Below, piece by piece: positions 587 to 15,111 of a DNA stretch of 32,231 bases. This stretch comes from a virus. Location of the stretch: positions 1 through 32,231 of the IMG/VR virus record IMGVR_UViG_3300021961_000365. One strand, written 5' to 3'. A program made the position numbers and the translations under genes. The number at the start of each line of letters is the position of its first letter. The first letter of the stretch is position 1. The notes beneath the pieces were generated by a model. That model was not told the origin of the DNA. It saw nothing but the letters and a program-made list of their open reading frames with translations, and ran no database searches.

Positions 587-2191
587 TTAATAGCCTCCTT
601 TAATTTTTGATACATCATACTTATTTTCCTTAACAAATTGGATTCCATCAATGGCAGCATAACGACATACGTCGATGGGGTCTTTCCACGCTTCGTCGGG
701 GCCGCCTTCGGCTGTGTATTCTTGGAACGCTTGGATAATGTTTTGACAACGGTTGGATACATAAAGGTGTGGGCGATTAACGCCATCTATTGAAATTTTT
801 CTATTGTAGGCCATCTTGCTTTGAATGGCTTGGATGCCATCCTCAATATCCAGTCCGGGCGCAGGAACGAATGTCAGGCCAGCCATAGACAAGTCTTCGA
901 TGATAGAAGAAGCCCCGTCCTGCCCCTGATACTTGGCCGCGCCTAAACGTGGGTCAATCAGCCGTTCAAAAATGTTTTCTTTGCCATCAGACTCTAGCGT
1001 CGTAATTAGATTAACATAATCCTTGATGCCATAGCCTAGCCCCTTAGACCCCTCGCCGCCTATCCATTTGCCGCTATGCCATTTAGCCCAATCTCCTACA
1101 GCAACGTCAGGCCATTCCCGATAGATGTAATACGTCTCTGTTTCGTCCACAGCTATCCAGCACATGAACCAATTCTTGCGGCCAGCAGGGTCTAGCACCA
1201 TGTACCTAGTGACATTTAGGCGAGGAATTTTTTCATGCGCTATGACATTTATATCCGTACTAAAATTAGGGAACTGACAGCTAAAGCTCTTGGTGGGAAT
1301 ACCATACGCACGGCACAGGATTTCTTCCTCTGGCCTATTGGCTAAGTCCTTGGCAATACGGTCATAGCCGCCAAAGGGATTGTCCTTTGTATGGAAGTAA
1401 ATGACGGCGGCATTACGATTCTTAGAATGTTGGATAGTGCTTACCATTCGTCCTCCAAGGAGTTCTGCTGGTTTGCTTTCTATTGTCGTAGCCCCGCCAA
1501 TGTAGTCGCGCACTACTTCCGTGTACCCATCAATAGGGGTAAACGTCACAATCATCTTGGCATTACGGGTAGCCAAACGGAATCTAAGGGTGTTCAGTAG
1601 GTCTGGCCCAATTAAATATTCGTCGCACCATGCCCCAATGTTCATCACCTTAGCATCCCTGCACCCCAACTCCGCACCTTCCAAGATGGTGTCGTTGTTT
1701 AAATACTGGGCATACGTCTTAAAAATTATTTGCGACAAGCTGTTAGGCAGAATCAAACTCCCTTTGCTGAAGCCGTTCTTTCTAGTGTAGCTAACATTCT
1801 CCTCAGCCCCCAGCATTTTCTTTCTATATTCTTCTGGCAGAGCATCATAGATGGCACTCTGCTGTTGACGTATGGATACATCGGCGTTCTGGCTAAAGCA
1901 CATGATGACGCTGCCGTGATTCTCAATAGCTGAATGAACTACAGCCCTAGCCGCATAACTTGTTTTACCAGAACGATTACCGCCGCTAATCAATATCTCT
2001 GTGAACTTGGCAAGCTGTATGTCCGCCTGTTTCCAATGCGGCAGGACAAAGCCATATCGATAGCTGTCCCGCTCGCTATTAGTAATAGACGAATGATATA
2101 TCTCCCACAGCTCCAGCAATTTACTAGGTTCCATCTGCGCCATCTCATCAGGCGTGGGCGGGCAAAGCACTGGGTGTGATTTCCACTTCAT
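587..2191 (-). CDS. terL: Terminase large subunit (packaging ATPase and nuclease)
   Basis: This 534-residue protein is the motor that pumps DNA into the prohead and cuts it. Residues 70-77 (GGNRSGKT) form the Walker A motif, residues 182-192 (VMNIGAWCDEY) fit Walker B with the catalytic acid, and TFTP at 216-219 fits the coupling motif. The C-terminal half has the layout of an RNase H-fold nuclease, with candidate metal-binding aspartates at 334 (VLDPAG) and 413 (LIDPRLG). Its length is normal for the family. The start overlaps the end of the small terminase gene by four bases, which supports both the start and a shared transcript. The packaging type (cos, pac or terminal repeats) cannot be told from this sequence. 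Confidence 0.95.
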   Translation of the reverse strand: MKWKSHPVLCPPTPDEMAQMEPSKLLELWEIYHSSITNSERDSYRYGFVLPHWKQADIQLAKFTEILISGGNRSGKTSYAARAVVHSAIENHGSVIMCFSQNADVSIRQQQSAIYDALPEEYRKKMLGAEENVSYTRKNGFSKGSLILPNSLSQIIFKTYAQYLNNDTILEGAELGCRDAKVMNIGAWCDEYLIGPDLLNTLRFRLATRNAKMIVTFTPIDGYTEVVRDYIGGATTIESKPAELLGGRMVSTIQHSKNRNAAVIYFHTKDNPFGGYDRIAKDLANRPEEEILCRAYGIPTKSFSCQFPNFSTDINVIAHEKIPRLNVTRYMVLDPAGRKNWFMCWIAVDETETYYIYREWPDVAVGDWAKWHSGKWIGGEGSKGLGYGIKDYVNLITTLESDGKENIFERLIDPRLGAAKYQGQDGASSIIEDLSMAGLTFVPAPGLDIEDGIQAIQSKMAYNRKISIDGVNRPHLYVSNRCQNIIQAFQEYTAEGGPDEAWKDPIDVCRYAAIDGIQFVKENKYDVSKIKGGY

Positions 2192-3060: not shown

Positions 3061-3153
3061 CATCATAGCAGGCCATGTTGCAATTTTTTTTAGGGCGGTG
3101 CTAACCTAATCGTAATTCTCTTGCTGGCCAGCCGCCTGACCCCCGCCCCCCCC

Positions 3154-3179
3154 CTATTGCTGAGATTGCGTCTCAATAG
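3154..3179. repeat. Imperfect hairpin next to a C-run
   Basis: CTATT (3154-3158) pairs with AATAG (3175-3179) and GAGA (3162-3165) with TCTC (3171-3174), leaving a three-base bulge and a five-base loop. No T-tract follows on either strand, so it is not a typical terminator. It directly abuts the C5-G-C9 tract at 3140-3154. Confidence 0.35.
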
Positions 3180-3185
3180 CAGGCA

Positions 3186-3200
3186 TTAGAATGATTCTAA
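3186..3200. promoter_or_regulatory. Perfect 7-1-7 dyad, candidate operator
   Basis: TTAGAAT-G-ATTCTAA is a perfect 15-base palindrome around a single central base. The 7-1-7 geometry and A/T-rich ends resemble operators of the Fur/PerR family, but the match is by eye and any dimeric helix-turn-helix repressor could use such a site. It sits midway between the two divergent operons. Confidence 0.4.
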
Positions 3201-3615: not shown

Positions 3616-3643
3616 TTGACTCGGCGACTGGTGGCCCTAGATT
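3616..3643 (+). promoter_or_regulatory. Candidate rightward promoter (proximal) for the MoxR module
   Basis: TTGACT (3616-3621) matches the -35 consensus at five of six positions. A 16-base spacer leads to TAGATT (3638-3643), a weaker -10 box. The start codon of the first gene lies about 58 bases further on. A small TTCGC/GCGAA dyad (3642-3655) overlaps the expected transcription start and could be an operator. Confidence 0.5.
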
Positions 3644-3701: not shown

Positions 3702-4727
3702 ATGATCTCCCTCACAAAGTTAATCTCAGCCAGACTCAAAGTCTTGCTTGTTGGTCAGCCAGCACTTGCGAAAACGGCGCGCATCAAATTGTCAGCAGAG
3801 GAGGCCGATCACAAATTTATCGTGATTCGCCTAAGCCTTGCCGAGCGCGTCGATTTGGCAGGCTGTTTGGTTCCCGATTTCGCTGATGGCATTACTCGCC
3901 AGCTTCCCCTTGCGATGCTCAAATATCTGCAAACCACAACTGACAAAGTGCTAGTGCTTCTCGATGATTTAGGCCAAGCGCCAACAGACGTTCAAGCTGC
4001 TGCCATGTCATTATTCGACGCTGGTTTTTTATCGCCTTCTGTGCTGATCTGGGGAGCAACCAATCGGCCTGCTGACAAGGCTAATTGCGTTGGCCTCTGT
4101 GAGCCATTGCGGAGCAGATTTGACCTCGCTTTTTCTATGGCAACACCTAACGCGGTTCCCTCCACCGTTGGCCCTGTGATGCTGTCCACTTGGCAAGATG
4201 AAGTCGATGGCTGGTGTTTGTGGGCTGCTGGCAAGGAGTATGCGGCCGAGATTGTGGCCTTCCATGCTTCCACCTATGGCAAGTCACTTTATCAGTGGAA
4301 ACCTAACGCCGATCCTGCTGCGAGAATGCCAGACTTCCGCTCATGGGAATCAGTGGCCAAGATGTGGCAAGCTGGCATTCGTGATGTTGACAGCATCGCC
4401 GCCGCCATTGGCAAGCCTGCTGCCATCGAGTTTACCGCATTCGCTGCGATGGTTGACGAGTTGCCAACGCCACAGCAAATCTGGGCTGACCCGCACACTG
4501 CGATGATTCCCACCTCGGCCTCTGCGCGCTTCTTGATTGCGTCGATTCTTGCTCGCGCCGTGGAGGGTAAAACCTCCCGCGCTTTCGTCATCTACTTTAC
4601 TCGCCTAGAAATTCACCTCGCTGCATTCGCTGCACGCGTTGCGTTCAAACGCATTGGCGACAAACTTGCTGGCTCATCAGAGTGGCACGTTTGGTTCTTA
4701 AAAAATTCTGCTTTGTTCCAATCATAA
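3702..4727 (+). CDS. MoxR-type AAA ATPase
   Basis: A 341-residue AAA+ ATPase of the MoxR type, a group of chaperone-like remodelling ATPases usually paired with a VWA-domain partner. Visible motifs: Walker A GQPALAKT at 18-25, Walker B VLLDDL at 85-90, sensor-1 region GATNRP at 118-123 and an arginine-finger-like PLRSRFD at 135-141. The order and spacing are normal for MoxR. The C-terminal 190 residues are helical and unassigned. I use the ATG at 3702, because upstream codons in the same frame read through the promoter region and encode no plausible domain. No Shine-Dalgarno site is present (leader AGAAATAAAATC). It heads a three-gene module ending in a VWA protein at 6674, its likely partner. 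Confidence 0.85.
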   Translation: MISLTKLISARLKVLLVGQPALAKTARIKLSAEEADHKFIVIRLSLAERVDLAGCLVPDFADGITRQLPLAMLKYLQTTTDKVLVLLDDLGQAPTDVQAAAMSLFDAGFLSPSVLIWGATNRPADKANCVGLCEPLRSRFDLAFSMATPNAVPSTVGPVMLSTWQDEVDGWCLWAAGKEYAAEIVAFHASTYGKSLYQWKPNADPAARMPDFRSWESVAKMWQAGIRDVDSIAAAIGKPAAIEFTAFAAMVDELPTPQQIWADPHTAMIPTSASARFLIASILARAVEGKTSRAFVIYFTRLEIHLAAFAARVAFKRIGDKLAGSSEWHVWFLKNSALFQS

Positions 4728-4729
4728 AC

Positions 4730-4751
4730 CGTCTACACAACGTCTACACAA
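4730..4751 (+). repeat. Tandem 11-base repeat before the second module gene
   Basis: CGTCTACACAA occurs twice in direct tandem (4730-4740 and 4741-4751), filling most of the gap between the MoxR stop codon and the next ATG at 4760. It takes the place where a ribosome binding site would be expected; no Shine-Dalgarno sequence is present. Confidence 0.6.
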
Positions 4752-4759
4752 AAAATAAA

Positions 4760-5557
4760 ATGCCATCCTCCAATAATCAGTTAGCTTCCCGCGCCGTCAT
4801 CGCGCTTTTCAAAACTGGCGCTTGGCGCGCAGTCAAGACTCATGTTTCGGAGTCACAGCAAGAGAATCAACGTCATGGCCTCACAGATGAGGCCAAGGTT
4901 CAAGTGAGAATCTGCTCTCATCCTGCTCTTGCTGAAATCACTAAACTCCATGCGGAGGCTCGCGCTGCCCATTATCGCTTGTCGCTGCCAGCCACTGACG
5001 ATGGCTTGCGCTTGCTGGCTGGCGCTCGCCAGCTAGAGCATTCGGCTGTCATGGCTGGCTTTGCTTCGCGTCATCTGGCGCTAGTGGCCAATTTCTGCGC
5101 TGCTTATGAGGCCGAGCGCGCATCTGCTCCTGTTCGTCTTAATGGCCTCTACATTGCGGCGCAATGGCCTTCCGTCAGCGAGGTGGAGGCGCGGTTCAGC
5201 TTCTCATCGCGTTACCTTCCGGTTCCGGTGCTTGGCCAATGGGAACAGTGGCTCGCTGAGAGCGCCGAAAAAGCAGAAGCCGAGCTGAAAGATCGGCTTG
5301 CTGATGCTGTGACGAAATTAGCTCACAAGCTGGCTGATAGTAAGGCCATCTTTCGTGACAGTCTGCTTGGTAATCTCGCTGACATTTGCGCGCTGGCTGG
5401 TGACTTAAACCTTCGCGCAGACCCAACCATTGCAGCGCTTGCCAGCCAAGCTGCCAGCCTCTGTGATGTTCCCGCCGAGAAGTTACGCGATAGCGCCACA
5501 CTGCGCGCTTCCACTGCTTCCCGCGCTGCTTCGATTTGTTCCATGTTCAAACTGTAA
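4760..5557 (+). CDS. Helical protein of unknown function between MoxR and VWA genes
   Basis: A 265-residue, alanine-rich and probably all-helical protein that I do not recognise. It starts at the ATG at 4760, right after a tandem 11-base repeat; in-frame upstream codons would overlap the MoxR gene and look unlikely. It shares the module's frequent GCT/GCC/GGC codons. Charged helical segments near residues 60-120 and 170-230 could form coiled coils. It has no signal peptide or membrane segment. It ends four bases before the VWA gene start, so the three genes are surely one transcript. Its constant place between an ATPase and a VWA protein suggests an adaptor or substrate-binding subunit, which is inference. 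Confidence 0.75.
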   Translation: MPSSNNQLASRAVIALFKTGAWRAVKTHVSESQQENQRHGLTDEAKVQVRICSHPALAEITKLHAEARAAHYRLSLPATDDGLRLLAGARQLEHSAVMAGFASRHLALVANFCAAYEAERASAPVRLNGLYIAAQWPSVSEVEARFSFSSRYLPVPVLGQWEQWLAESAEKAEAELKDRLADAVTKLAHKLADSKAIFRDSLLGNLADICALAGDLNLRADPTIAALASQAASLCDVPAEKLRDSATLRASTASRAASICSMFKL

Positions 5558-5561
5558 TTCT

Positions 5562-6674
5562 ATGAATCTCCCTATCTCATTATTCCGCGCTCGCGACTGG
5601 GCGCTTCGCACTCCTTCCACTGTGTTTTACGGTGTTCTTGCCTCCAATCTGCTTGATGTTCTTGATGACAGCATCGACACAGCCTGCACTGATGGCAAAG
5701 TGATTAAATGGAACCCAAAGTTTTTGGCTTCGCTGACTGAAGAAGAAGTCCGCTTTGTGCTGCTTCACGAAACCTTGCACTGTTCTAACCAGCATTTCTG
5801 GCGCTTGCCATTAAATCGCCGTGGGAACATCGCTGGCGATTATGTCATCAACGCCATTCTATCGAAGATTGCTGGCCTAAAAATGCCCAAGGGTGGCCTT
5901 TTAGATGCCAAATATTCCAACATGGCAGAAGAACAGGTGTTGGCGCTTCTGCCCAAAGATGAGGATGACGAGCAGGAAGGTGACGGTGGTGGCTGTGGTG
6001 GCTTTGGCGAACCAGCGCCAGACGCTCCAGAGGCCAGCCAGACGCTTTCGCAAGAATGGACAGGCGCTATCTTGCAAGCTGACAACGCGCAGCGCAGTGC
6101 AGGCGCTGGCAGCGCGCCTGCTGATATGCAGCGCATGATTGACGCAATCAAGGTCAGCTCGCCAGATTGGAAGCAGGAAATGGCTGACTTTGTAAAGTCT
6201 GCTGTCAGCCAGCGAAACGATTGGTCGCGCTCATCTCGCCGCATGGCTTCTGCTCCTTGCATCTATCCGCGCAAGCGCGCCGAGCAGATTGGGCAAATTG
6301 TTTTTGTGCGCGACACGTCTGGCAGTGTAGACGGCGCGATTTTGAATGCGTTTAACGCGCTCATACAATCAGCAATGGCAGACACAAACTGTTCCGCAAT
6401 CTTGCTTGATGCTGACGCTAGTGTCCGTGCTGAATATCGGCTGTCTGCTGGTGATGCTGTGCCAGCCACTGCCAAAGGCGGCGGCGGGACATCCTTCCAG
6501 CCTGCATTTGATCGCATTGCAGCGATCATTGCAGACGGTGAGGCTGTGGCTGGTGTTGTCTATCTCACCGACTTAGAAGGCCCACAGGCTGACGCTTTCG
6601 ACCTGCCTGTGCTTTGGCTTTGCACGACCGATCTAGTGGCCGCCTTTGGCCGAACCGTGAAGGTGAACCTCTAG
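5562..6674 (+). CDS. Metallopeptidase-like (HExxH) protein with C-terminal VWA domain
   Basis: A 370-residue protein with two recognisable parts. The N-terminal part has a zinc-metallopeptidase signature HETLH at 69-73, with a further histidine at 78, set in LLHETLHCSNQH as in DUF2201-type putative metallopeptidases. After an acidic, glycine-rich linker (133-165) comes a VWA-like domain from about 245. It carries all three pieces of a metal-dependent adhesion site: DTSGS at 251-255, T310 in GGGGTSF, and D337 in YLTDLEG. VWA proteins of this kind are the usual partners of MoxR ATPases. Whether the peptidase is active cannot be seen. The start at 5562 follows the previous gene by four bases. 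Two strong hairpins lie just downstream. Confidence 0.85.
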   Translation: MNLPISLFRARDWALRTPSTVFYGVLASNLLDVLDDSIDTACTDGKVIKWNPKFLASLTEEEVRFVLLHETLHCSNQHFWRLPLNRRGNIAGDYVINAILSKIAGLKMPKGGLLDAKYSNMAEEQVLALLPKDEDDEQEGDGGGCGGFGEPAPDAPEASQTLSQEWTGAILQADNAQRSAGAGSAPADMQRMIDAIKVSSPDWKQEMADFVKSAVSQRNDWSRSSRRMASAPCIYPRKRAEQIGQIVFVRDTSGSVDGAILNAFNALIQSAMADTNCSAILLDADASVRAEYRLSAGDAVPATAKGGGGTSFQPAFDRIAAIIADGEAVAGVVYLTDLEGPQADAFDLPVLWLCTTDLVAAFGRTVKVNL

Positions 6675-6690
6675 CCATCTAGCAGACATG

Positions 6691-6754
6691 GCAGGCCAGC
6701 GCCTCTGCTGGCCTGCTCCTTTGGGCCTTCTTATCAGAAGGCCCAGAGGAGCAG
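6691..6754 (+). promoter_or_regulatory. Overlapping strong hairpins, possible attenuator or processing site
   Basis: GCAGGCCAG (6691-6699) pairs perfectly with CTGGCCTGC (6708-6716). Overlapping it by four bases, 6713-6731 pairs with 6736-6754 to give a 19-bp stem with one G-U pair and a TATC loop. The two cannot both form completely. No U-tract follows, so it is not a standard terminator. The right arm contains AGGAG (6747-6751), the only ribosome-binding-like sequence for the next gene, so the stem could also mask translation. Confidence 0.65.
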
Positions 6755-6767
6755 CTTGCTCCATCTT

Positions 6768-6980
6768 ATGAAAAAATACATACACGATCCGCTCGTGCGC
6801 GCTACATTGCGCGCACAGGCCAAGACATCAGTGGGGAGGCTCGCCTCCTTGCTTGCCACAGAAGCGCGCTGGAGCCGTAAGGCCACCATCGCACGCAATC
6901 AACTCGCCAAGGCGCGCAAATCCATTGCACGCATGGCTCAAGACATGGCAGCCAAGCTGCTCAAGGAGGAATTAGCATGA
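6768..6980 (+). CDS. Small basic helical protein
   Basis: A 70-residue protein rich in arginine, lysine and alanine (for example RATLRAQAKTSVGRL and QLAKARKSIARMAQ), probably one long amphipathic helix or coiled coil. Its function is unknown; nucleic-acid binding is plausible from the charge. I use the ATG at 6768; a TTG at 6756 in the same frame is closer to the AGGAG at 6747-6751 and could be the true start. That ribosome site is buried in the preceding hairpin. The stop codon overlaps the start of the next gene in an ATGA. Confidence 0.6.
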   Translation: MKKYIHDPLVRATLRAQAKTSVGRLASLLATEARWSRKATIARNQLAKARKSIARMAQDMAAKLLKEELA

Positions 6981-10468: not shown

Positions 10469-11308
10469 ATGAGTAACGAATCTGGAGGACATTGGTATAC
10501 GTTGGACGGCAAGGCCGCTCATACGCAACCGACGAAAACGAAGGGCGCAAAGCCTATTCGATCAACCACGCTTGCAGACGCTAAACGACTGGGGCTGCTT
10601 CCGAGCGTCTCTGCCTATACTAGAATGTTGGCCGCCCCATATTTGGAGCGGTATAAGATGCTGGAGGTTGCGAAGGCGTGTTACGCCTGCCCTCCTTCTG
10701 GCGGCGAGAGCTATGACGACTACGCTAAACATATCTTAGAAAAGAGCGGGAAGGACGGGAGCGGTGCGGCTCAAGTGGGAACACAGGTTCACGCTGCCAT
10801 TGACTTATACTTTACTGACCCAGAACACTATATGGCCTGTCCCGACATTGTTTGTCAAGACGGCAGCGAAGTGACAGCAGATTCTTTTGTATTACCAGCA
10901 ATAGCTAAGATTCAAGCTCTTGGTTTAACGGTGAATAGCACGGAAACGGTGTTAGTAAATCCTGCTTACGGATACGCGGGAACTACGGATATGCTGTTCA
11001 CGCATAAAAATTTATGCGGGGTGTTGGACTTTAAGACCAAGCGCACGCACGAAGGAGAGCCTGTCATCTCTGGTGATACGCATTGTATGCAGATCGCCGC
11101 CTATCATGCGGCTCATTGGGGTGCGGCAGATGGTGAGCCTATTGGACTTAATTCGGTTGGATATAATGTTTACATCTCGACAACAGAGATTGGCCGCGTA
11201 GAGGTAGTGGAGTATTCACAGCAGGAGCTTGTCGAAGGCTGGCAAGCATTCAAATCCTGTCTCAACTTATATAGATACATTAAAGGGTTTGACCCACGCA
11301 AAAAATGA
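10469..11308 (+). CDS. RecB/Cas4-like PD-(D/E)XK exonuclease
   Basis: A 279-residue nuclease of the RecB/Cas4-like branch of the PD-(D/E)XK superfamily. The order of motifs is typical: GTQVH at 104-108, an acidic residue near E159, AGTTDML at 170-176 with the metal-binding aspartate at 174, the core DFKTK at 187-191 and a QIAAY motif at 208-212. No iron-sulphur cysteine cluster is evident, unlike Cas4. In phages such enzymes resect double-stranded ends for recombination and replication. The gene starts after an A/T-only leader with no Shine-Dalgarno sequence. It overlaps the helicase gene by four bases, so the two are co-translated. Confidence 0.85.
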   Translation: MSNESGGHWYTLDGKAAHTQPTKTKGAKPIRSTTLADAKRLGLLPSVSAYTRMLAAPYLERYKMLEVAKACYACPPSGGESYDDYAKHILEKSGKDGSGAAQVGTQVHAAIDLYFTDPEHYMACPDIVCQDGSEVTADSFVLPAIAKIQALGLTVNSTETVLVNPAYGYAGTTDMLFTHKNLCGVLDFKTKRTHEGEPVISGDTHCMQIAAYHAAHWGAADGEPIGLNSVGYNVYISTTEIGRVEVVEYSQQELVEGWQAFKSCLNLYRYIKGFDPRKK

Positions 11309-12558
11309 ATTACGAACAAACTTTCCTTGGTTCCTGTTTACAGGATGGGGGAAACATAGATTTGGCAATCCAAGATGGCCTTGTGCCGTCCTGTTTCACC
11401 ACAGATGATCGGAGGGATATTTGGGGTGCATTATTAGGCAATAGGACAGAAGGGCGGCAGACGGATACGACAGGTATTTTTATGCAGATGGGGACTAAAT
11501 GCCCTTCGGAGGAGTTGTTTGCTTGTGAGGCGGCGGCTCCCACCACGGTTTATGCAAAGAGGTGTCTAAAACAGATAATAGAGGCTTACGGCATAAGCCT
11601 TATAAAACCAGCCTTGAAGGGGGTTTTAGAGAAAATTGACAAGGGATTAGAGTATGACGCAATCAAATCGTCTGTAGACGCGCTAGAATCGATTTTAAGG
11701 CCATCCGTGAGCCAAGACGTATCCATGCCACAGGTAGTGGACGAAGCCTCTCTATGGGCTACACAGCAATGTAGCGGCGAGGTTCCAGTGGAAACCGTTG
11801 TGACTCTGGGCCTTAGGGCGTTTGACGCTCTAGCCACACCCATACAGGAGCATGAATACGTTGTTGTAGGTGCGCGAACCAGCACAGGCAAAAGCAGTTT
11901 CATGGCACAGGTGGCAGGCCACAACTTACGTCGCGGCCTCAAGGTGGCTTATTTCACCCTAGAAACCAGCAGCAAGAGCCTTGTCTTGCAGATCGCGGCA
12001 CAAAGGGCAGGCGTTAATCTACGCAACTTGCGGGATGAGTTTGAACCACAGCAAATTAAGTTTCAGCAAGAGTTGGCTTATCTGAGAACGCAACCGTTGT
12101 TGGTGTTTGATCGTGACCTTACGTTAGATAAGATTGAGGCGCGTTGCCGCCTGCTGGCTACGTCATTCAAACCCAACCTTGTCATCATAGACTATCTGGG
12201 GCTTATCAAAGTGAAGGCTGATGGTGCGTATGAGCGGATGAGTGCGTTGTCTAAGGCTATGATTCCCCTCAAGAAGTCGTTAGGCTGTGCGCTGATGGTG
12301 GCGGCACAACTCAATCGCGGCAACGAAAGAGAGGATAGACCACCCAACAGAACAGACTTCCGCGACACAGGAAGTATTGAGGAAGATGCACACAGGGTGC
12401 TTGCAATTCACCGTCCCTCGAAAGATGATAGCGGAGAGATACAAGGGCTTGAACGCTCTAGTTTTCAGACAGAACTTTACCAACTTAAACTCAGAGATGG
12501 CCCACTTGCACAATCACGCTGTAGGTTTGAGGCTAAATATACACGATTTGTAGAATAA
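11305..12558 (+). CDS. dnaB: DnaB-type replicative helicase
   Basis: A 417-residue helicase of the DnaB family that should unwind phage DNA at the fork. The N-terminal 110 residues look like the DnaB N-domain (YEQTFLGSCLQDGGNIDLAI). The RecA-like core has Walker A GARTSTGKSS at 189-198, FTLETS after the next strand, Walker B LVIIDY at 292-297, AAQLNRG at 333-339 and the DFRDTGSIEEDAH motif at 351-363. It is somewhat shorter than bacterial DnaB. No primase or polymerase is in this window, so host enzymes or genes outside it must supply them. The stop codon is only seven bases before a tRNA gene. Confidence 0.93.
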   Translation: MNYEQTFLGSCLQDGGNIDLAIQDGLVPSCFTTDDRRDIWGALLGNRTEGRQTDTTGIFMQMGTKCPSEELFACEAAAPTTVYAKRCLKQIIEAYGISLIKPALKGVLEKIDKGLEYDAIKSSVDALESILRPSVSQDVSMPQVVDEASLWATQQCSGEVPVETVVTLGLRAFDALATPIQEHEYVVVGARTSTGKSSFMAQVAGHNLRRGLKVAYFTLETSSKSLVLQIAAQRAGVNLRNLRDEFEPQQIKFQQELAYLRTQPLLVFDRDLTLDKIEARCRLLATSFKPNLVIIDYLGLIKVKADGAYERMSALSKAMIPLKKSLGCALMVAAQLNRGNEREDRPPNRTDFRDTGSIEEDAHRVLAIHRPSKDDSGEIQGLERSSFQTELYQLKLRDGPLAQSRCRFEAKYTRFVE

Positions 12559-12565
12559 ATAATTT

Positions 12566-12640
12566 GCCTGCGTAGCTTAATGGTGAAGCGCCTCATTTGT
12601 AATGAGGATATTGCGGGTTCGATTCCTGCCGCAGGCTCCA
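12566..12640 (+). tRNA. tRNA-Thr (anticodon UGU)
   Basis: A full cloverleaf can be drawn. The acceptor stem GCCTGCG pairs perfectly with CGCAGGC. The D stem is GCTT/AAGC. The anticodon stem CCTCA/TGAGG carries loop TTTGTAA, giving anticodon TGT for threonine. The T arm is GCGGG-TTCGATT-CCTGC, and the 3' CCA is encoded. It lies inside the early operon on the coding strand, so it must be cut out of a polycistronic transcript. It would read ACA and probably other ACN codons, which are common in the threonine-rich fibre genes. Confidence 0.95.
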
Positions 12641-13985: not shown

Positions 13986-14341
13986 AGCCCCCTAAAACTC
14001 ATTGCAACGGCACTTGGACAACAGCAAGATTCTTTGGATTTATACGCTCCGCTCTCCGCAGGACATGGACACGCTGGCCTGAGCAATACAGGGCTAGGAA
14101 CATGGCTCGCCGCCCCTACAAGGGAAAGAATAAGCTCCAGAAGTGGGAGTTCCTGTGCGCTGAGTGCAATGAGTGGTTCATGGCTAAGAACACGCAAGTG
14201 CATCATAAGATCGAGTGCGGCCAACTAAAGACATTCAAGGACATAGCTGGATTTACGGAACGCCTATTATGCCCCGCCGAAAATTTAATGGTGCTTTGCA
14301 AGAAGTGCCATAAGCAGAAACATCACCCAAAAGTTAAATGA
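13982..14341 (+). CDS. HNH endonuclease
   Basis: A 119-residue intact HNH nuclease. Zinc ligands are C59 and C62 (CAECNEW) and C106 and C109 (CKKCH). The catalytic histidine region is VHHK at 73-76, and N101 with H110 and H114 completes the motif. The basic N-terminus (ARFFGFIRSALRRTWTRWP) is typical of a common phage HNH family as I know it. It may be a homing-type nuclease or a nuclease serving recombination or packaging; it lies in the early operon, not next to terminase. It overlaps both neighbours by four bases, so it looks like a settled operon member rather than a recent intruder. Confidence 0.8.
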   Translation: MKPPKTHCNGTWTTARFFGFIRSALRRTWTRWPEQYRARNMARRPYKGKNKLQKWEFLCAECNEWFMAKNTQVHHKIECGQLKTFKDIAGFTERLLCPAENLMVLCKKCHKQKHHPKVK

Positions 14342-15111
14342 CACATACACTCAAACGCTTATTCTGGGACATAGAAACTTCGCCCAACGTCGTCCTATCA
14401 TGGCGCGTAGGTTACGACTTAAACATTGCACAGGACAACATCATCAAGGAGCGAGCCATCATCTGCATTGGCTACAAATGGGAGCATGAAAACAAATCTT
14501 ATATCTTAACATGGGATAAGAACCAATGCGACAAGGCTATGCTCAAGAAGTTTTTGGAAGTTGCCGCCGAAGCCGACGAAATGGTGGCCCACAACGGAGA
14601 CAAGTTTGACATCAAATGGTTCAAGACCCGCTGCATATTCCACGGTTTAGTATTCCAGCCTTACAAAACAGTGGACACGCTCAAGTGGGCGAGGAGCCAG
14701 TTCTTGTTTAACTCTAATAAGATGGATTACTTGGCGCGTTATCTAGGCCTAGGGGCCAAGATCAAGACAGAGTTTGGGCTATGGAAAGACATTTGTCTAC
14801 ACAACAGTCCCAAGGCCATGAAGCTAATGACGGACTACTGTAAGCATGACGTAGTGATACTAGAGAAGGTGTGGAAGCGTCTGTCTGACCTTATGGACGC
14901 CAAAACCCACGCTGGCGTGCTTCTAGGGCATGAGAAATGGACTTGCCCCCACGATGGAAGCCGTAATGTCCAAACCTACCACACCTTAGTGTCAGCTAAG
15001 GGAGTCAAGAGCTATCAGATGAAGTGCATGGATTGCGGCCACTACTACACCATCACGGAGAGCGTGCATAGCGAGTATGTAGCTTACAAAGCGGAGGCCA
15101 AAAAGAAATGA
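14338..15111 (+). CDS. DnaQ/RNase H-fold 3'-5' exonuclease with zinc-binding tail
   Basis: A 257-residue exonuclease-like protein. Motif I is WDIETSP with D11 and E13, motif II is HNGDKFD at 85-91 and motif III is YCKHD at 167-171, the DEDD arrangement of DnaQ-like and YprB-like nucleases. A C-terminal segment (about 200-240) contains TCPHDGS and KCMDCGHYY, a likely zinc ribbon. Proofreading, RNA primer removal or nucleotide scavenging are possible; as no polymerase gene is seen here, a stand-alone proofreading role is open. The start overlaps the HNH gene and the end overlaps the next small gene, both in ATGA. Confidence 0.85.
   Translation: MTHTLKRLFWDIETSPNVVLSWRVGYDLNIAQDNIIKERAIICIGYKWEHENKSYILTWDKNQCDKAMLKKFLEVAAEADEMVAHNGDKFDIKWFKTRCIFHGLVFQPYKTVDTLKWARSQFLFNSNKMDYLARYLGLGAKIKTEFGLWKDICLHNSPKAMKLMTDYCKHDVVILEKVWKRLSDLMDAKTHAGVLLGHEKWTCPHDGSRNVQTYHTLVSAKGVKSYQMKCMDCGHYYTITESVHSEYVAYKAEAKKK

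Follow-up and report, generated by a model that had tools for sequence, protein, structure and literature searches.

The virus record IMGVR_UViG_3300021961_000365 (IMG/VR), analysed over its full 32,231 bases and called the window below, carries three adjacent genes that an initial annotation had singled out as a module: a MoxR-type ATPase, a middle protein of unknown kind, and a protein joining a zinc-peptidase signature to a VWA domain. The three open reading frames lie where that annotation placed them, all open, all on the plus strand, and separated by gaps of 32 and 4 bases:

3702-4727, plus strand: P0001, 341 residues, MoxR-clade AAA+ ATPase by family and profile matches and motif residues
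4760-5557, plus strand: P0002, 265 residues, DUF3150-related protein, assigned through profiles, bridging loci and a structure model
5562-6674, plus strand: P0003, 370 residues, DUF2201 protein with an N-terminal zincin-like metallopeptidase and a C-terminal VWA domain, by Pfam matches, motif residues and a structure model

Comparison with a close relative, L008, gives ratios of nonsynonymous to synonymous substitution of 0.16 for the MoxR gene, 0.075 for the middle gene and 0.15 for the VWA gene, with 0.044 for the DnaB helicase gene as a yardstick. All three are under purifying selection and thus are not a chance reading of the sequence; the middle gene, at 90% identity, is the best conserved of them.

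The three proteins

P0003 combines both halves of the DUF2201 family in one protein, each above its Pfam gathering score: DUF2201_N (PF13203), a putative metallopeptidase (2.5e-26, 93.3 bits; cut-off 23.2), and DUF2201 (PF09967), which is VWA-like (9.9e-15, 55.2 bits; cut-off 26.4). By that sequence measure it is a DUF2201 protein. Its zincin-like site comprises HETLH at residues 69-73 (H69, E70, H73) with H78, R81, D93 and N97, and its metal-ion-dependent adhesion site (MIDAS) has D251, S253, S255, T310 and D337; the residues of both sites are invariant or nearly so among relatives. D93, 20 residues past HExxH and in the next predicted helix, is a candidate third zinc ligand. The HETLH signature and the complete VWA metal site that the initial annotation proposed are thus both present; the peptidase and VWA families are both detected, and the structure model recovers the VWA fold (best Z 12.9, root-mean-square deviation 3.0 over 153 residues).

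The two sites differ in how well they persist. Of 104 sequences, 10 have a degenerate HExxH, and these belong to at least five lineages (a group of L016, L049, L050 and L055, in which D93 is also lost, with its sister L053; L059; L071; L110; and L122 with L123), and MIDAS is intact in all 10. The peptidase motif is dispensable, and its repeated loss while MIDAS is kept speaks against an obligatory role for proteolysis: judged from these sequences, MIDAS capture and ATP-driven remodelling look like the conserved core, with cleavage optional. As HExxH is intact in the P0003 of this phage, zinc-peptidase activity is probably retained here.

P0001 matches PHROG 1297 ('ATPase') at 4e-40, and the profile of its family finds Midasin, a MoxR-clade ATPase, as its best solved-structure match (2e-36). 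It keeps K24, T25, D88, N121 of sensor 1, the arginine finger R139, and R213. Its Walker A motif, GQPALAKT, is a GxPxxAKT variant of what in most of the local family reads GxPGxGKS (the residue before the lysine is G in 97 sequences and A in 4); its Walker B, LLDD, ends in DD rather than DE, D being the majority form (71 D, 30 E). The clade and the sensor are as first described, and core motifs and nearest match together place P0001 as a MoxR-clade AAA+ ATPase; to call its Walker motifs 'intact' was slightly too strong, given the Walker A variant. A Walker A ending in 'AKT' is common among canonical MoxR proteins, so that P0001 is expected to be an active ATPase.

P0002 requires a longer route. 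Alone, it falls short of Pfam DUF3150 (PF11348), with E 0.014 and 15.2 bits against a gathering cut-off of 24.9, and the other members of the triad that were scanned likewise remain under that cut-off. Intermediates make the connection. A search with P0002 matched three cyanophage records, in one of which a 'DUF3150' gene lies between MoxR and VWA genes; the cyanophage DUF3150 protein as query found 42 plasmids, and P0003 as query found 56. A profile built from the plasmid and cyanophage proteins, with the window's own clade excluded, recovers P0002 at 7e-37, and the Pfam DUF3150 cut-off is exceeded by two loci found through the plasmid-family alignment, L079 (2e-12) and L088 (1e-9). The AlphaFold model of P0002 is confident (predicted local distance difference test score 94.0, predicted template-modelling score 0.86). 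It begins with a part of mixed alpha/beta structure, has long helices, and ends in a helical bundle; of the viral structures compared with it, a phage DUF3150 protein matches best (E 8.6e-15, template-modelling score 0.85). From intermediates and shared modelled fold, P0002 is DUF3150-related at the superfamily level, and not a DUF3150 protein by Pfam score.

Among solved structures, Foldseek returned no match to the P0002 model at E up to 0.001. VIA-align gave rows with Z up to 10.2, mainly over the C-terminal helical bundle; such values are common for helical bundles, and no structural family is claimed. The near-invariant residues of P0002 (K49, R68, Y116, L127, D135, Y136, P137, F146, N217 and D221) do not suggest a catalytic site and form no invariant catalytic constellation, so that the natural reading is an adaptor or scaffold; the part of specificity subunit, proposed for it in the initial annotation, is one that such a protein might play.

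Two side observations concern this family. The cyanophage records (OQ594354, OL906435 and PP438419) have different stated hosts, yet all are of 65,014 bases and encode an identical DUF3150 protein; the likely explanation is a single phage, or a contaminant common to all three. The true Pfam DUF3150 loci, L079 and L088, adjoin genes for a DUF6094 methyltransferase, SWIM, PD-(D/E)XK and a UvrD/ResIII helicase, a different context for the same superfamily.

Linkage and placement in phages and plasmids

Loci were collected by the DUF3150-related family alone (76 bacterial and 36 viral, with 58 of the bacterial loci forming the near subfamily), and the MoxR and VWA partners were then scored by independent family profiles. 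The near-subfamily bacterial loci hold all three genes in 55 of 58 cases and the viral loci in 30 of 36; where each flank is at least 5 kilobases long, the counts are 44 of 45 and 19 of 22. The three genes are always co-oriented. MoxR-DUF-VWA is the commonest order, with 78 loci; the exceptions, DUF-MoxR-VWA (4) and MoxR-VWA-DUF (3), are viral loci. Linkage that outlasts permutation is stronger evidence of joint function than a frozen operon would be. The middle protein is accordingly the real third component that it had been taken for, its family recurring with the other two even where the order has changed. Pairwise distances of the three families also correlate (Spearman 0.55-0.63; none of 2000 permutations as high). 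The remaining 18 loci, distant and of Pfam DUF3150 type, have neither MoxR nor VWA by the profiles, and the link is therefore a feature of one subfamily.

The bacterial trio loci are mostly from Burkholderiales, and the trio is present in all six plasmid regions examined; in one of these, L013, the MoxR gene (5853-6871) is split over two frames and was omitted from the annotation. Locus L074, listed as 'bacterial', probably represents phage DNA that ended up in a genome bin, since its VWA has zero branch length to viral contig L096. A gene for an uncharacterised protein of some 440-510 residues (for example L017:3255-4775, Burkholderiales) precedes the trio in 43 of the 45 bacterial loci whose flank is long enough, and in none of the viral loci. 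Two candidates were not counted as triads. Gp94 of Mycobacterium phage Dylan (275 residues, L134:7933-8760) is probably the protein that gave a weak fold match to P0002; it lies beside a classical AAA gene, gp95, and not a MoxR gene, and is a possible distant analogue in a laboratory mycobacteriophage. A 383-residue protein of halovirus HVTV-1 (probably gp25, by its length) is not next to the AAA and VWA genes of that virus.

Terminase matches occur in 19 other phage contigs; in 18 of them the trio lies on the strand opposite terminase, divergently in 17, and with grouping at 60% identity the count is 14 of 15. Related phages thus do not carry the module in structural operons, an arrangement that would have told against the initial annotation. 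The six triad plasmids give no terminase match. In bacterial loci with at least 4.5 kilobases downstream, type IV secretion system (T4SS) genes follow the trio in 40 of 52. A dedicated role in virion assembly fits poorly with a trio that opposes terminase in phages and is carried by plasmids without it.

Setting in the window and known relatives

The window itself has the same layout, which bears out the claim that the module stands first among the rightward replication genes and apart from the structural ones. The leftward block opens with the terminase genes, and the rightward block with the trio, after which come the exonuclease, DnaB, HNH and 3'-5' exonuclease genes. The surrounding features are:

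587-2191, minus strand: large terminase, opposite to the module and divergent from it
3146-3197, no strand assigned: 52 bases identical in L008, with an inverted repeat, CTATTGCTGAGATTGCGTCTCAATAG, at 3154-3179
3616-3643, plus strand: candidate sigma-70-like promoter, TTGACT-16-TAGATT, 5' of the module, by consensus match, its sequence kept in L008
10469-15111, plus strand: replication genes 3' of the module, with a PD-(D/E)XK exonuclease, DnaB helicase (11305-12558), HNH and a 3'-5' exonuclease (14338-15111)

The trio would be expressed early, to judge from this arrangement. Promoter-like sites, called by consensus match only, number 8 in the region where 2.9 are expected. The 52 identical bases, which include a C-run, form a conserved island when window and L008 are compared across their otherwise diverged divergent intergenic DNA; they are a candidate cis element common to the leftward packaging and rightward early blocks, perhaps an origin, an operator or a divergent promoter. 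A tRNA-Thr (TGT) gene at 12566-12640 directly follows DnaB within the rightward block.

The pair of ATPase and peptidase-VWA protein is already known. P0003 relatives occur in 445 phage records, including N4-like phages and phage G. In Escherichia phage N4 itself, gp24 and gp25 are core genes of the N4-like group (Schitoviridae) and are middle genes; the published list gives gp25 the entry 'vWFA domain' and gp24 that of an unknown (PMC4193335). N4 gp25 scores 3e-87 with DUF2201_N and 1e-46 with DUF2201; the two N4 genes belong to the same ATPase and DUF2201 peptidase-VWA families as the genes described here, and are likewise adjacent and upstream of replication genes. They differ in forming a pair, with no DUF3150-related gene beside them; a profile search of N4-type loci (At2, Pastis, phage G, Phosso and phiFa) found none there either. 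PHROG 1314 and RefSeq phage records, N4 gp25 among them, label DUF2201 peptidase-VWA proteins 'HNH endonuclease'; domain searches of these proteins returned nothing that backs the label.

Cellular counterparts with a MoxR ring and a VWA adaptor are RavA-ViaA, NorQ-NorD and CbbQ-CbbO, and a NorQD structure turned up, as a weak match, in the structure comparison of P0003. To our knowledge, these pairs have neither a DUF2201 peptidase nor a DUF3150-related protein. Viral pairs are closer. Group 2.2 jumbo phages carry MoxR with a metallopeptidase-vWA protein on the same two-gene plan, the peptidase N-terminal to the vWA domain, described in 2021 with proposed functions in virion assembly and peptide processing (PMC7824862); that is a pair, whereas the trio is found also on plasmids, and in non-structural blocks. 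A MoxR pair was noted in phage 0305phi8-36 in 2007 (PMC2147016), and haloviruses have AAA/vWA pairs in a replication/accessory module (PMC7911831). Acidianus two-tailed virus p618/p892 is a further viral MoxR-VWA pair with a chaperone role, in tail development; it has no peptidase domain (PMC7824862) and is not known to include a third protein.

The system is therefore undescribed in part. The pair was known (N4 gp24/gp25, jumbo phages, 0305phi8-36); a search of the open literature turned up no description of the trio with a DUF3150-related partner, of its carriage by plasmids as well as phages, or of its consistently non-structural placement. No PubMed Central full text was found to mention DUF3150, and four mention DUF2201, one of them a phage genome paper. 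A search of NCBIfam returned no name, and the deep branches of the VWA tree are without resolution.

Possible functions of the trio

On balance, the three genes probably encode one ATP-driven protein-remodelling machine with a role separate from virion morphogenesis; its likeliest client is a host protein or a host/element nucleoprotein complex in the establishment phase. MoxR-vWA systems have in common that the vWA MIDAS face captures a substrate peptide and the MoxR ring passes on an ATP-driven change (PMC7159879). Here, MoxR subunits would assemble into a hexameric ring, onto which the DUF2201 protein would dock; its VWA domain would, with the Mg-loaded MIDAS face, grip a substrate or partner by a peptide or an acidic side chain; the DUF3150-related protein, as an obligate adaptor or scaffold, would position the substrate or couple the arm to the ring; ATP hydrolysis would then force the gripped protein into another conformation. 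Where HExxH is intact, as it is in this phage, the tethered zinc peptidase could cut that protein. A host-side client is favoured because diverse phages, in their non-structural blocks, have the trio in common with plasmids. The host takeover, proteolysis of a host factor or counter-defence to which the initial annotation pointed are conjectures.

Several points weigh against this account. Opposition to terminase rules out a shared terminase transcript, but would be compatible with an assembly chaperone that is made early; and four of the terminase calls (L098, L102, L116 and L127) are weak, with best E from 2e-7 to 1e-4. The distance correlation arises partly from shared descent of whole elements. 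The N-terminal peptidase domain of P0003 has weak structural matches only (selecase), and the AlphaFold models are of monomers. Finally, the job of the trio may differ between phages and plasmids.

A more specific proposal, which we put forward tentatively, makes the trio an unfoldase/protease of phages and conjugative plasmids, in which the DUF3150-related adaptor would choose the host protein to be captured by MIDAS, remodelled and optionally cleaved, and so disarm an entry barrier common to both kinds of element. A counter-defence perspective is possible at a similarly modest level: some host immune protein that stops both phages and incoming plasmids would be the one that the machine unfolds or cleaves. 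Phages and conjugative or mobilizable plasmids face the same barriers, and they share the trio; its early-type location and substrate-capturing architecture are also compatible with the idea. However, PADLOC-DB gave no match to an anti-phage defence family at E up to 1, no neighbouring anti-defence gene was identified, and the middle protein evolves slowly, unlike the usual component of an arms race.

A second perspective, rather unlikely in our view, supposes that the client belongs to the element, whose own replication or transfer nucleoprotein complexes would be remodelled. The trio heads a block with DnaB and exonuclease genes, DnaB is on the same strand in the relatives L099 and L110, bacterial trios are commonly followed by the T4SS genes counted above, and DUF3150 relatives adjoin nuclease and helicase genes. 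Yet many phages and plasmids do without the trio; moreover, the partner genes differ, the phages having no T4SS, so that a client encoded by both kinds of element is not evident.

Virion assembly, in which a MoxR-VWA chaperone with peptidase helps to fold and process structural proteins, is unlikely. It is the published proposal for the jumbo-phage pairs (PMC7824862) and resembles that for the tails of Acidianus two-tailed virus, and in the N4-like phage RPP1 some virion proteins are encoded close to the gp24/gp25 homologues (PMC4193335). Besides the strand opposition in phages and the plasmids without a terminase match, it has to accommodate the standing of N4 gp24/gp25 as middle genes, and the list of RPP1/RLP1 virion proteins with an N4 counterpart, none of which corresponds to gp24 or gp25.

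A role in conflict or exclusion between elements is equally doubtful. The trio would here act as a switch to shut out rival phages or plasmids, like the MoxR-vWA ternary systems, with which it shares a plan of MoxR, vWA and a third conserved protein (PMC7159879); its carriage by mobile elements would suit such a function. The parts differ, however: those systems have VMAP, iSTAND or FtsH as third component, or a beta-propeller fused to the vWA (PMC7159879), and here the third component is DUF3150-related; their vWA proteins bear C-terminal effectors, whereas P0003 has its peptidase at the N terminus, ends at the VWA domain with no variable effector beyond it, and is a protein of phages and plasmids. 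Diversification of the trio is also low. Insertion of a metal or cofactor in the manner of a chelatase is very improbable: CobS/CobT, BchI/BchD and CoxD/CoxE are MoxR-VWA relatives (PMC7159879), but, as far as we know, lack an HExxH domain and a DUF3150-related partner, and no cofactor enzyme lies near the trio.

If the preferred account of a remodelling machine is right, the carriage of one machine, its third partner constant, by both phages and plasmids narrows its target to something that both meet, and not a virion protein. The DUF3150-related partner now has a name, and the natural variants without HExxH would serve as built-in controls. Tractable hosts are at hand: E. coli with N4 for the pair, and the plasmids of Cupriavidus and Paraburkholderia for the trio.

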